In this document: positions 1 to 4,441 of the stretch, in pieces | How the letters are laid out: each line of letters opens with the position of its first letter | Position numbering within the stretch: position 1 is the first letter of the stretch | NCBI GenBank assembly: GCA_028821455.1 | Contig: JAPPGE010000023.1 | Span: 1-64,000, forward strand | Length of the DNA stretch: 64,000 bases | Direction of reading: 5' to 3' | Origin: a bacterium | GTDB taxonomy: Bacteria; Pseudomonadota; Alphaproteobacteria; SP197 | Made by a program: the position numbers and the translations under genes | Notes under the pieces: model-generated | Databases searched by the model: none | Told to the model about the DNA's origin: nothing | What the model saw: only the letters and a program-made list of their open reading frames with translations

Positions 1-622
1 GTCTGAATCCTCAAAACCAAAACGTCACCAACTCTTCAAAAGCGATTCCCCTGTGTCGGAGGCCTGTCCCTGCGCGAGATGCTATGTCGATTAGTGGCAC
101 GCACTTCAATTCGGAGGAGGAATTGACAATGGTAGCTTCTGGCCCAGAATCTGAGCCGTGCGCCTCGCTGGGAACCCGATGGGAATCGCGGCAAGTACAA
201 CGCCCGGCGGTTACTGTCGGAGAGGTCCCGAGTGTGCTCTCACGCGCAAGCCCGCCCACCCGACCTTCCCAGCCAAGGAGCGCATGACACCAACAGCGCA
301 TTGCCTAAAGCGAAGCGGCGGCGATCCGCGACGTCGCCGAATCAGTCGAGCGGACGCCCGGCGTCAAGGACGTTGCAAAGTGACCGCTTTACCTTATGGC
401 GATACTCTCCCATCGATCTGAATCTGAAACACACGACACGGGATCAGCTTGCCTTGTTGGCGAGTGAAGCGAAAGGACTTTGTCGAGGAAGTGGCATCGG
501 GCGCCAATGACCTATGGAAGGAGAACAAGGGGTCTGACCGGATCTTGTCGCCATAGCAAGGGGCTTTCGATCCATCCGGCAACAACGTGCACTATGATGT
601 CCCGGCTTCTCCAGCTTCTGCA
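1..622. other. Left-edge stretch with no supported gene
   Basis: I see no convincing gene here. The short open frames on both strands have no recognisable domain. One plus-strand frame at 129-287 has a strong GGAGGAGG sequence upstream, but its 52-residue product is low-complexity and resembles nothing I know. A minus-strand frame starting at 623 overlaps the stop of the downstream recombinase by one base and would give 59 residues, also without recognisable features. The stretch probably belongs to the interior of the mobile segment, whose left end is not in the window. Confidence 0.4.
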
Positions 623-1762
623 TCAAGACTCGAACACACTGACAATCGCCCTACCAACTCGTTCGGCTGCTTCTTCGATGTCTCTGTCAGAGACATGGGC
701 ATACCGCATGGTCATCGAAACCTGTCGATGACCAAGAAGCCGCGCCACTGTCGGGAGAGGAACACCCTGCATAACGGCATAGCTGGCAAAGGTATGGCGC
801 AAGTCATGCAGGCGGATATCCTCTATGCCCGCACGTCGCCGAACGATGTCCCAAAGGGGCAGATTTCGACAAGGTGGTCGTGACGGTGCGGTCGGTGAAG
901 GAAAGACGTACGGGCTGTCAATGCGTGGTTGTCGATTTATGATCTCTCGTGCCGTACTGCTAAGATACACTGTTCGCGGACCCGTCTTGCTGTCCGTGAG
1001 GTCAAGCGTCCCGTCGCCAACTTCCTTCCATTGGAGCGTCCGGATTTCGCTGAAACGGCAGCCCGTGCAGGAGAGGAGTCGAATGATGTCCGCCTGGCGA
1101 GCCCGTGACGGCTCTTCTGCAACGCAACGGTCCAGTTCGTCATGAAGGCGACGGATTTCGGCCCGGGAGAGGAACCGGTTGAGTTTGCGCCCCGGGTTGC
1201 GGCGGATGCCACTCGCAGGATTGACCTCGACGTGGCCATGGACCCTGGCGTGATTCATGATCTGGCGCAGGACGTCGAGCGTACGGTTGGCTCCGCCAGG
1301 AGCGGTCTCGCTGTAGCGGTCGAACCAGAGACTGACGGACCGTCGATCGATCCGGTCAAGTGTCAGATTGCCGAATGTCGGCATGAGTTGACTTGCCAAC
1401 ATGTAGTCGGCATGGCGGCGGGAGGTTGGCTTCTGACGCTCGTAGCATTCCGACTTCCAGACGGCGGCAACAAAGTCACGGAACAAGGGAACGGTCGTGG
1501 TGGGCTTTCGAGCGTCCGGTCCGCCGGACTGGATATCGAGGCACCTGATGCGCGCCTCGTCAACAGTCATCAGCGTCGCCCGGGCGAGCGTGCGACGCCG
1601 TGAAGATCCGTCACGACTGTCGAGACAGATGAATGCCCGATGTCCGGACGGCCGGATACGCACGCCAAGGCCTGGGACCTTCGTGTCCCAGACCGTGTAT
1701 TCCGACTCCTCCGCACGCAGCCGCATGACATTGCGATCACTGAGGCGCATTTTTCGGGGCAT
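623..1762 (-). CDS. Tyrosine-type site-specific recombinase (second of pair)
   Basis: This 379-residue protein catalyses DNA strand exchange through a 3'-phosphotyrosyl intermediate. The N-terminus (about 1-80) resembles the arm-binding domain of P4-like integrases, followed by a core-binding region and a catalytic domain. The catalytic residues are readable: Arg in TGCRFSEIRTLQW, the HDLRHTFAS box giving His and Arg, a LLGH box and the nucleophilic Tyr in MRYAHV. The start codon lies 3 nt after the stop of the upstream recombinase, so the two are almost certainly co-transcribed and translationally coupled. The two proteins share the same architecture but differ clearly in sequence, so this is not a recent duplication. 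It may be active, since no catalytic residue is missing. Confidence 0.9.
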   Translation of the reverse strand: MPRKMRLSDRNVMRLRAEESEYTVWDTKVPGLGVRIRPSGHRAFICLDSRDGSSRRRTLARATLMTVDEARIRCLDIQSGGPDARKPTTTVPLFRDFVAAVWKSECYERQKPTSRRHADYMLASQLMPTFGNLTLDRIDRRSVSLWFDRYSETAPGGANRTLDVLRQIMNHARVHGHVEVNPASGIRRNPGRKLNRFLSRAEIRRLHDELDRCVAEEPSRARQADIIRLLSCTGCRFSEIRTLQWKEVGDGTLDLTDSKTGPRTVYLSSTAREIINRQPRIDSPYVFPSPTAPSRPPCRNLPLWDIVRRRAGIEDIRLHDLRHTFASYAVMQGVPLPTVARLLGHRQVSMTMRYAHVSDRDIEEAAERVGRAIVSVFES

Positions 1763-1765
1763 GGC

Positions 1766-2881
1766 TCAGCTCTCCCCGCCGAGAATGGGCGCCAGAGCTT
1801 CGGCGGCATCGCGGACGGTCGCATCGGCAAGGTGCGTGTACTTCAGCGTGGTCGCCGGGTCGGTATGGCCGAGAAGCCTGCCGATGGCGAGGATCGTCTC
1901 GCCATGGGCGAGGGCCACCGACGCGTAGGTGTGCCTCAGATCATGGCACCGGACATCCTCGATGGCCGCCTCGGCCCGCACTTTCCGCCAGAACAAGTGA
2001 AGAGTATCAGCCGACAGGTGGCGGTTTCCCCGGGACGATGGAAACACCCATGAACCTGATCGCGGAAGGTCGTCGAGAACACGGCGTGCGGCGGACGACA
2101 GCCACACGGTGCGCGGTCCGACCTTGCTGTCGGAGAGGTGGAGGTTGGCCTCGCGGTACTCGGGCCACCTGAGTGTCAGGATCTCGGAACTGCGACACCC
2201 TGTCAGGAGAAGCAGACGTATGATCGATGCCAGAAGGGGAAAGCGGTCATGATGCCGGTCAAGTGTCCGGCTCAACCGCCGTATCTCATCCGTCGTCAGG
2301 AATCGTTCACGGCCCCGCCGGCGATAGCGCCTGATGCCGCTGCACGGATTGGTCCCCTCGAGGCGATAGCCGTAGACCTCGGCCTGTTTGAGAATGACCG
2401 AGAGAACCGGTGCCGATCGATTCGCGGCCACCGGTGTCGCATGAAGGGAGGCAAACCACCTCTCGACATCGGAGCGCGTGATGTCGGCAATCGCCATGCC
2501 CCTGAACCAGGGCAGGATTTGATTCCTGAAGTATCCGAGATTGACCGTGAGCGTACGCGGCTTCCAATGGCGAGCGTAGCGCCGGAAGACTTCCTCGGCC
2601 ACAGCCTCGAACTGGATTGGAGCGACGGGCCCGGCGTCGCGCTTCGGCGCCAGCAGGGCGTTGGCCTTCGAGCGGGCGCACTCCAGGCTGATGGTCTTGG
2701 CATCGCCGATGGCATGCCAGACGCGACGACCGTCGACCTGGCTGTGGAGAAAGTACCGCTTGCGGCCCGAAGGCAGGATTCTGACACCGAATCCCCTGAT
2801 GTCCCTGTCTCGAATGTCACGGGCCTTCCTGCCCGGCTTGAGGGTGTCGACGCGATGTTGCGTGAGACGGCTTGGCGCCAT
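1766..2881 (-). CDS. Tyrosine-type site-specific recombinase (first of pair)
   Basis: This is a P4-like integrase of about 371 residues. The N-terminal arm-type domain contains a GFGVRILPSGRKRYF stretch, which is typical of such integrases. The C-terminal catalytic domain shows Arg in LTGCRSSEILTLRW, then HDLRHTYAS, LLGHTDPATT and Tyr in LKYTHLAD. I chose the ATG at 2881 because AAGGGAGAG lies about 5 bases upstream. An in-frame start at 2974 would add 31 residues that reach into the disrupted oxidoreductase and look non-coding. It is the promoter-proximal member of the pair and starts 94 bp from the premature stop of the oxidoreductase, which places it at the integration junction. Confidence 0.9.
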   Translation of the reverse strand: MAPSRLTQHRVDTLKPGRKARDIRDRDIRGFGVRILPSGRKRYFLHSQVDGRRVWHAIGDAKTISLECARSKANALLAPKRDAGPVAPIQFEAVAEEVFRRYARHWKPRTLTVNLGYFRNQILPWFRGMAIADITRSDVERWFASLHATPVAANRSAPVLSVILKQAEVYGYRLEGTNPCSGIRRYRRRGRERFLTTDEIRRLSRTLDRHHDRFPLLASIIRLLLLTGCRSSEILTLRWPEYREANLHLSDSKVGPRTVWLSSAARRVLDDLPRSGSWVFPSSRGNRHLSADTLHLFWRKVRAEAAIEDVRCHDLRHTYASVALAHGETILAIGRLLGHTDPATTLKYTHLADATVRDAAEALAPILGGES

Positions 2882-2974
2882 GGTTTGCTCTCCCTTCCCC
2901 TGTTGCACCGGGGGCACGGAAACCTCTTGATTCCGCGTTCCAGGCGTGAAATAGTGAGAGAGAAAACGTCGCAA

Positions 2975-4045
2975 TTACCGGTTGTTACAATTTTCGTTCA
3001 GCACCAAAGGTGCGCTCCAGGTGTGTTCGAAGGTGACGCGGGGCACCATGGGAAAACGCCTGGCAAGGGTACGGAGGTGTCGACGCCGGACTTGCGCCAG
3101 ATCGCGTTCGGTGATCGTGAAGTCCGGACGGTGACGCAGGGCCAGCCGGATGAGAAGCCTCTTGTCCCGGGTGTAGCGCATCGTCGCCCCGCCCAGAAGG
3201 ACTGGAATGGTTCCCCAGTCGCCTTCGCCTCCCAGGGCCTTCTGTTCGGCATCGTCAAGCGGCCGGGTGAGGCTGGCGAACGTGTGGATGGTGAGCAGCT
3301 TCTGCCTGAGAAACCCGAAGGCGGAAGTCCAGCCGTTGGTCGCCAGGATGATCCGTGGCGCCGTCAGTCGCCCGGCTGATGTCACAAGAGTCTTGGATGT
3401 GCCGTTGTGGTACTCGCGCACGGCGGAATTCTCGAAGATCTCGACATTGTCCGGCATGGAGCGCGCCAGCCCTGTCACAAGCGCTGCCGGCTGCATGAGT
3501 ATGCTCCCGGGGGTAAACAGGCCGTCGACAAAGCTGTCCGTGCCGAGGAAGGCGGTGAGACGCCCGCGGTCCCATCGCTCGCAGTCCTCGCCAAGGTCGT
3601 CGAGACGGGTCTGCATGACGTCGAGATTCCGGCGTCCCGAAGACGTGGCCGCCACGTGTACCTTGCCGCGACGGCTCCACTGACAGCGAATCTGGTGACG
3701 CTCCACAAGATCGCCGAGCCAGGCGATGGCCTGCCGGTTGATGCGGATCTGCCGGCGGTCGTGTTCCGGCTGTTCGCGCGACAGCGCATGGGGAAGGTCG
3801 ATGATGAATCCCGAATTGCGCCCCGAGGCGTTCTCCCCGATGCGTCCCGCCTCAAGGAGCACGACGCGGTCCCCGGGCCGCAATTCACCCAGGCGCCGGG
3901 CGGCGGCAAGACCGGCGAAACCACCACCGATCACCACCCAGTCCGCCGCACCCTCGCCTTCCCAGACACGCGCCGGAGGGTGTTCCTCCAGGATGTTGTA
4001 CCAGCCGTTCGAATGATCGTTCTTCGGGAAGCCGGTCACCCGCAT
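2975..4045 (-). CDS. FAD-dependent oxidoreductase (DAO family), 3' end truncated
   Basis: This is a D-amino-acid oxidase-fold flavoprotein related to PuuB-type gamma-glutamylputrescine oxidases; 356 residues are present. The dinucleotide-binding motif IGGGFAGLAAARRL lies near residue 40, followed by an acidic strand end and ASGRNSGFI, typical of amine-oxidising members. The family normally runs to about 430 residues, with a C-terminal FAD contact segment of the form GCNGxGxxKGT. Here the frame ends just after FEHTWSAPLVL, so that segment is lost. The tail after that motif is probably foreign sequence from the inserted recombinase element. It starts 9 bp after the cupin stop and belongs to the same minus-strand run. 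The product is probably inactive, and the substrate is unknown; a small amine or amino acid is likely. Confidence 0.8.
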   Translation of the reverse strand: MRVTGFPKNDHSNGWYNILEEHPPARVWEGEGAADWVVIGGGFAGLAAARRLGELRPGDRVVLLEAGRIGENASGRNSGFIIDLPHALSREQPEHDRRQIRINRQAIAWLGDLVERHQIRCQWSRRGKVHVAATSSGRRNLDVMQTRLDDLGEDCERWDRGRLTAFLGTDSFVDGLFTPGSILMQPAALVTGLARSMPDNVEIFENSAVREYHNGTSKTLVTSAGRLTAPRIILATNGWTSAFGFLRQKLLTIHTFASLTRPLDDAEQKALGGEGDWGTIPVLLGGATMRYTRDKRLLIRLALRHRPDFTITERDLAQVRRRHLRTLARRFPMVPRVTFEHTWSAPLVLNENCNNR

Positions 4046-4054
4046 GGCGCGGTG

Positions 4055-4441
4055 TCAGTCCAGGGGCTCCGGGGGGACGGGTACGTGGTGGTGGGTGCTG
4101 CTTCCCGCCTTCGACTCGGTCACCGGAGCCACGGCAAAGAAGAATCTCGCCGGTTCGCGCGCCACATAGGTGAGCCGGGTTCCGGCAGGAAGCCACATGA
4201 TGTCTCCGGGGCCAATGCGGTGCCGTCCCTCGTCGGTGTGGATCTCCAGTTCACCGTCGATTCCGTAGATGATCTCGTCGTAGGTCACGGTCCAGGGAAT
4301 GCTGCAGTTCTCGAACACTCCCATGCCGCCTCCCAGCGTGGTGCTGATCGCCGAGTTGATGGTTGCCACCACATTGCCGCCACTGCCGTCAGCCACGGAA
4401 AGATCGAGGTCATTCCCACGGAACATGCGTGCATCGCTCAT
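4055..4441 (-). CDS. Small cupin-domain protein (EutQ-like)
   Basis: This 128-residue protein forms a single cupin barrel. The conserved turns are visible as DEIIYGIDGELEIHTDEG and GPGDIMWLPAGTRL, resembling the EutQ-type ethanolamine utilisation cupins. These proteins are poorly defined biochemically. The His residues expected of metal-binding cupins are mostly replaced here by Asp, Glu and Tyr, as in EutQ. The start codon overlaps the stop of the upstream Rieske oxygenase by one base (TGATG), so it is translationally coupled to it. The context suggests a binding or isomerising role in the same catabolic operon, but the function is unproven. Confidence 0.8.
   Translation of the reverse strand: MSDARMFRGNDLDLSVADGSGGNVVATINSAISTTLGGGMGVFENCSIPWTVTYDEIIYGIDGELEIHTDEGRHRIGPGDIMWLPAGTRLTYVAREPARFFFAVAPVTESKAGSSTHHHVPVPPEPLD

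Follow-up and report, generated by a model that had tools for sequence, protein, structure and literature searches.

Positions 1-3014 of the window (the whole 64,000-nt stretch that was analysed, part of contig C60 of genome G000) are best explained as the right end of an integrative mobilizable element (IME) belonging to a many-copy family. This element is inserted at ACACC-TGGAG in a FAD-dependent oxidoreductase gene, and its far end is on another contig of the same genome, C85. We place the probability of this reading, together with the two-recombinase working that we propose for it, at about 0.92. In the layout that best explains the family as a whole, two coupled tyrosine recombinase genes occupy one end, a MOBF relaxase and a NikA-like accessory protein are encoded at the opposite end, and the cargo varies. 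The parts of the element and its host gene in the window are as follows.

3020..4045, minus strand: host 5' fragment of the split DAO oxidoreductase gene (PF01266; 90% DNA identity to the uncut G007 contig as far as window position 3013)
3020..3024, minus strand: host recognition arm ACACC (GGTGT on the plus strand), present in the G001 and G007 empty sites; ACAC(C/G/A) is at the same distance in 34/34 visible right ends of G000, G004 and G001
3015..3019, minus strand: 5-bp coupling TGGAG, shared by the two junctions and the empty site
3001..3014, minus strand: element right terminus CGCACC-TTT-GGTGC, a palindrome with a variable 3-bp centre (GCAC-N5-GTGCT in 32/35 loci)
2975..3014, minus strand: element-encoded tail of the truncated oxidoreductase ORF, including its stop codon
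2954..2968, plus strand: putative arm-type site GTGAGAGAGAAAACG, an inverted copy of a left-end one (right ends compared with left ends)
2901..2914, minus strand: putative second arm-type site CCCCCGGTGCAACA, similar in sequence to CTTCCCCGAGTGCAACA at left ends
1766..2881, minus strand: int1, tyrosine recombinase of 371 aa with catalytic R, K, HxxR, H and Y (Pfam PF00589, PF13356, PF14659)
623..1762, minus strand: int2, tyrosine recombinase of 379 aa with its catalytic residues present (Pfam PF00589, PF22022)
1..622, no strand: remainder of the assembled element up to the contig edge, in which no gene is conserved; homology among copies ends at ~652-675
1..53, plus strand: edge of a high-copy repeat at which the assembly breaks off within the element; it recurs at 23 more genome positions, mostly contig edges

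The split oxidoreductase gene and its two junctions

The truncated oxidoreductase ORF (window 4045-2975, minus strand, 356 aa) matched only positions 1-308 of the 353 in the Pfam DAO profile and therefore lacks its C-terminus, as the initial annotation had proposed; relative to the uncut G007 orthologue, 90 residues are missing in all. The break in the gene is at ~3014, and the residues of the ORF beyond FEHTWS(A) are element sequence. Some details of the earlier description need correction here. The ORF had been said to stop after FEHTWSAPLVL, but actually continues to ...LNENCNNR. The GCNGxGxxKGT segment, thought to lie about 70 codons further on, is represented in the uncut orthologue by NGVGAAKGT, which starts 26 codons past the break, and the segment where PVFG was expected reads SGVMCMSRN. 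The spacing of 94 bp to the first recombinase was accurate, with the ATG of int1 at 2881 and the end of the oxidoreductase ORF at 2975.

A search of four genomes with the C-terminus of the G007 oxidoreductase located the missing 3' piece in G000 itself, at C85:12741-13040, where it adjoins the start of an element left end. The 3' piece and the left end had both been predicted to lie to the left of the window; both exist, but on this separate contig. The window contig ends at base 1 inside a high-copy repeat, which puts the left end out of reach by walking left, and the middle of the window element is unassembled. Unique DNA is always on the same side of the 53-bp edge repeat at its 23 further places, and window 1-53 is one terminus of a high-copy repeat at which the assembly stopped. 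A short segment of the same region, window 352-389, is common to the end of contig C15 (C15:175851-175888) and is perhaps the end of an insertion-sequence gene.

The window junction reads ..GAAC-ACACC-TGGAG-CGCACC-TTT-GGTGC.. and the C85 junction reads element..GTGC-ACACC-TGGAG-CGGTGTCATG... Two related genomes, G001 and G007, hold an uncut oxidoreductase gene, and their empty site is ACACCTGGAGCGGCGTC, with ACACC-TGGAG-CGGCGTC as its junction part. The uncut G007 contig (L056) aligns at 5-3282 to window 6291-3013 with 90.4% identity and at 3270-4264 to C85 13039-12045 with 90.7% identity, and these alignments overlap by 13 bp, corresponding to the duplicated site ACACC-TGGAG-CG. The gene after the 3' piece on C85, an enoyl-CoA hydratase gene as identified by reading, is also within the L056 alignment. 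Judged by these alignments, the insertion at the DAO site is clean and has duplicated the core. The 3' piece on C85 and the empty sites support the proposal of the initial annotation that insertion of a mobile element with two adjacent recombinase genes split the 3' part of the oxidoreductase gene.

A related element breaks the oxidoreductase orthologue of G004 at exactly the same base (contig C22), with its other junction on G004 C63. This orthologue, the only one found to end at the same residue, is the one point in favor of the view that the oxidoreductase naturally ends here, or lost its end to a point mutation or frameshift, with the recombinases simply located downstream. The G004 copy is itself split by an element, however, and no intact orthologue was found to end at this residue; the nearest ones run past the same base, in G007 by the 90 residues noted above. 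As the 3' piece and the following enoyl-CoA hydratase gene sit on C85 and the empty sites are at hand, we rejected a natural end, to which we give practically no chance. The G004 C22 element additionally encodes a 1177-aa protein that has a SIR2 domain and is similar to the Dsr1 defence family (L073 961-4494) and a second, partial int2-like ORF (L073 4720-5148).

Conserved ends, couplings and choice of target

The motif GCAC-N5-GTGCT was found upstream of int1 in 32 of 35 loci from three genomes (G000, G004 and G001); the exceptions are C39, which is cut off by a contig end, and the diverged G004 C99 and G001 C323. All 34 visible right ends have a host arm of the form ACAC(C/G/A) (29 ACACC, 4 ACACG, and 1 ACACA), and 28 different 5-bp couplings occur at them. 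Depending on the subgroup, one or two extra bases separate the coupling from the palindrome. The three central bases of the palindrome vary freely among copies while its arms are fixed (e.g., window 3001-3013). The palindrome of C17 is altered on both sides, to GCACG..CGTGC, and since this two-sided change keeps the symmetry, it suggests that the symmetry matters.

Left ends were harder to recognize, as a single left end used as a nucleotide query found few others and a pattern search gave mostly chance matches. A model built from an alignment of eight left ends gave 11 matches in G000, 13 in G004 and 4 in G007. The left ends carry CTTCCCCGAGTGCAAC ~170 bp and a GTGAGAGAG-like block ~65 bp before ACACC, with matching copies at the right end, and we consider these repeated blocks to be putative arm-type binding sites.

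The couplings at the two kinds of ends were compared for 23 of the 24 left ends in G000 and G004 (G000 C91, without ACACC at the model end, was dropped; the four G007 matches are outside the count, the right ends having been collected for the other genomes). The left-end coupling equaled that of some right end in the same genome in 14 of the 23 cases, relative to a random expectation of 0.61, and none of 20,000 random draws was as high. In the cross-genome control only 2 of 23 matched, both through the shared TGGAG site. Joining the flanks of matched ends gives a continuous host frame for the DAO gene (in both genomes) and for SulP, glycosyltransferase, HAD and Rieske oxygenase genes, as well as for a hydroxylase and an autotransporter-like gene in G004 and, more weakly, for an epimerase end; these host genes were named from reading of the sequence, without profiles. 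No clear continuous gene was seen across the joined flanks of four matched G004 pairs (C85/C20, C92a/C26, C102/C48, and C9/C21).

For most left-right pairs the equality of couplings is partly circular, because the pairs were first proposed from equal couplings. Four elements were paired independently: C60/C85 and G004 C22/C63 by protein, and C90 and C54 because both ends are on one contig. Their couplings are equal in three cases and different in one (C54, GTAAT versus TGATT), which indicates that couplings are usually duplicated and that a mismatch is tolerated. As in the family here, CTnDOT and Tn916 combine a short conserved core with a 5-7 bp coupling that need not match, but these elements have a single integrase and couplings that are usually unequal at the two ends.

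These data bear on whether the elements are strictly homology-dependent islands, in which each lineage, as with phage integrases, retains a coupling of its own and can integrate only where the site matches. Consistent with this expectation are the three equal couplings among the four independent pairs, the coupling CGGTG common to the related G004 elements C55 and C23 in different host sequences, and the coupling AGGGC common to the closely similar G004 left ends C8 and C30 in different hosts. Against it, the sister elements C13/C54 in G000 and C92a/C102 and C85/C20 in G004 have different couplings, C54 differs between its own two ends, and the one DAO site is occupied by C60 and G004 C22, which do not group as sisters in the Int1 tree, a coincidence that strict homology does not predict. 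We rate strict homology as a real contender whose chances fall somewhat short of even. A further shared target is ACACC-AGTGG, which holds four elements of two clades (C104 in G000, G004 C3, G004 C99 and G001 C323) and, by reading rather than by profile, looks like the start of a porin gene. The target data as a whole are explained neither by strict homology nor by free retargeting, and we favor the view that coupling homology is preferred and mismatch tolerated.

Spread of the recombinase pair and genes for mobility

Int1 and Int2 are ~39% identical to each other, and int2 begins 3 nt past the int1 stop, with no gene between them. Searches with both proteins identified 14 adjacent Int1-Int2 pairs in the 4.36-Mb genome G000, and 14 of the 19 Int1 loci examined in G004 have an uncut Int2. 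At nearly all uncut loci the Int2 start lies at -4 or +3 nt relative to the stop of Int1, and the catalytic residues are invariant across 34 Int1 copies wherever these are not cut off. The main groups of the Int1 and Int2 trees agree, and the pair therefore travels as a unit.

All genomes in this analysis are metagenome-assembled. An Int1 relative was detected in 16 of 289 genomes of a class-wide sample (E 1e-60), G000 included, and none was detected in five genomes of the same genus (G002, G003, G005, G006, and G009; E 1e-30). G300 and G291, two genomes from other families, have right ends of the same kind. Overlapping recombinase pairs with the same order and overlap were also found on plasmids of Shewanella (L219), Aurantiacibacter (L220), and Vibrio (L221); these are ~40% identical to Int1 and annotated only as integrases, and no terminal palindrome like that of the family was found within 330 bp upstream of the three pairs.

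Solo right ends that retain no more of int1 than its first 40-80 codons are present in G000 at other host sites (C9:889-1259, C44:3562-3886, and C86:11677-11917), and we read these sequences as remnants or short non-autonomous forms. They show that decay occurs, and the copies in G007 carry stops. Together with the absence of a conserved gene from window 1-622, which ends in a repeat, this would fit the window element being a remnant as well, i.e., a dead recombinase module in a decayed island that is immobile today. We doubt this and would bet against it, because both window recombinases are open and keep every catalytic residue, and both termini and the direct repeat are intact.

Two complete elements are contained in single contigs, C90 (~18.5 kb) and C54 (~14 kb). 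In both, Int1-Int2 lie at one end, and a TrwC/MOBF relaxase that includes a helicase domain (2050 and 1951 aa, respectively) is encoded near the opposite end. The cargo of C90 includes a restriction-modification-like protein of type IIG. Insertion of the C54 element has disrupted an AbiE-like anti-phage gene pair belonging to the host (L199 14991-16078). A NikA-like protein adjoins the left end on C102 and a near-identical ORF is found at C85; such NikA-like ORFs at C85 are the only mobilization genes seen for the window element itself, the relaxase being seen in its siblings C90 and C54. Among ten genomes of the same genus, Int1-like genes and TrwC relaxases are both present in five and both absent from five. 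We noticed no complete T4SS among the listed ORFs of C90 and C54, of which only part were profile-scanned. Based on the sibling relaxases, the NikA-like protein and the co-occurrence in the ten genomes, we read these elements as integrative mobilizable elements: they have their own integrases and att repeats (Int1, Int2, both junctions, and the empty site), and relaxases or mobilization proteins in C90 and C54.

Known systems and a proposed working

The window element is best read as a "Tyr duo" IME of the kind found in Prevotella, but one that has alphaproteobacterial hosts, uses a MOBF relaxase, is present in many copies and enters many targets. MTnPi1-3 of Prevotella intermedia are IMEs with a tyrosine recombinase duo and the att sequence TTAC NNNNN AA (PMC5704250, PMC4755523). 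According to the available parts of these reports, they share with the family two tandem tyrosine recombinases (14 such pairs in G000), a relaxase, several copies per genome and a short 11-bp att with a 5-bp variable centre; the corresponding short att, variable coupling and low target specificity are seen here in 34/34 right ends with 28 couplings. The likeness is one of description, and the family differs in its alphaproteobacterial hosts, its ACACC-N5 core, its MOBF relaxase and its larger number of copies, as well as in the ~39% identity of its recombinases, those of MTnPi being described as having no significant homology (PMC4755523, PMC5704250). In the portion of PMC5704250 at hand, no canonical IME was then known with a MobF relaxase, and none of those described in Proteobacteria was canonical. 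MOBF IMEs were later reported in Mesorhizobium, where 41 genomes contained 24 IMEs, integrated at tRNA genes, radC and further sites of the ICE type (PMC8627217). These are likewise alphaproteobacterial chromosomal mobilizable elements with a MOBF relaxase and relaxosome accessory factors, but the accessible part of that report does not mention a recombinase pair. A literature search with limited coverage of subscription journals returned no description of this alphaproteobacterial family, or of a tyrosine recombinase duo combined with MOBF and a multicopy, many-target habit.

Other multi-recombinase elements are less similar. GInts, as far as described in the accessible text of PMC5385486, also have a recombinase operon at one end, variable cargo, a weakly conserved far end, direct repeats of 10-11 nt and a ~6-nt overhang able to drift toward the target; their ginABCD comprises three integrases plus GinD, all needed, whereas the family has two recombinases without a conserved third gene. 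A third conserved gene after int2, as in GInt and RIT, was looked for and none was found, the next ORFs differing between C90 and C54. We rejected membership in GInt since the conserved DNA stops near the end of int2, and in RIT since RITs have three adjacent recombinases and each locus here only two. SEs resemble the family in having two catalytic tyrosine recombinases and a 6-bp spacer, but are described in the available text as intA-tfp-intB-srap elements of 1-2 copies that are putatively non-mobilizable (PMC10214605); with Int2 starting 3 nt after Int1, there is no position for tfp, and we rejected membership in this group too.

Copy-out by a strand-biased circle as in SEs, with the donor copy staying in place, would account for the many copies (14 pairs in G000, 19 Int1 loci in G004) and would suit two recombinases with a 5-7 bp spacer. 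We nevertheless regard it as quite improbable, because the bases beside the two SE ends differ in origin, as stated in the part of PMC10214605 available, while here they are mostly equal, and because int1 and int2 have no gene between them, in contrast to SEs with their tfp at this position.

For the "Tyr duo" IME that we prefer, Int1 and Int2 would cooperate, with some division of labour, on an attP consisting of the left arm ACACC, the 5-bp coupling and the palindromic right arm GCACC-N3-GGTGC. The attB partner would be ACACC plus 5 bp. Cuts staggered around the coupling would leave an ACACC-N5 direct repeat at both ends upon insertion, and if a coupling mismatch is sometimes tolerated, the element could thereby acquire a new target. 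Excision may be followed by transfer through the MOBF relaxase and a helper conjugation system. Multiplication of the MOBF elements within genomes could be due to a machine that needs little beyond ACACC, copies or tolerates any next 5 bp and can have its target reset by insertions, with copy-out as a possible contribution; this explanation is tentative and we lean against it.

Most integrative islands occupy one or a few fixed sites. The more than 30 related insertions described here, with their defined ends, varying couplings, empty sites and same-site events in related genomes, represent a natural experiment on how an integrase changes target. In anatomy they amount to a compact system of two recombinases and a short recognition core, which a laboratory strain would allow to be tested. 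These elements disrupt genes for metabolism and the cell surface (oxidoreductase, sulphate transporter, Rieske oxygenase, and porin-like) and bring defence-like genes with them, and so probably have a part in shaping the alphaproteobacterial genomes described here.
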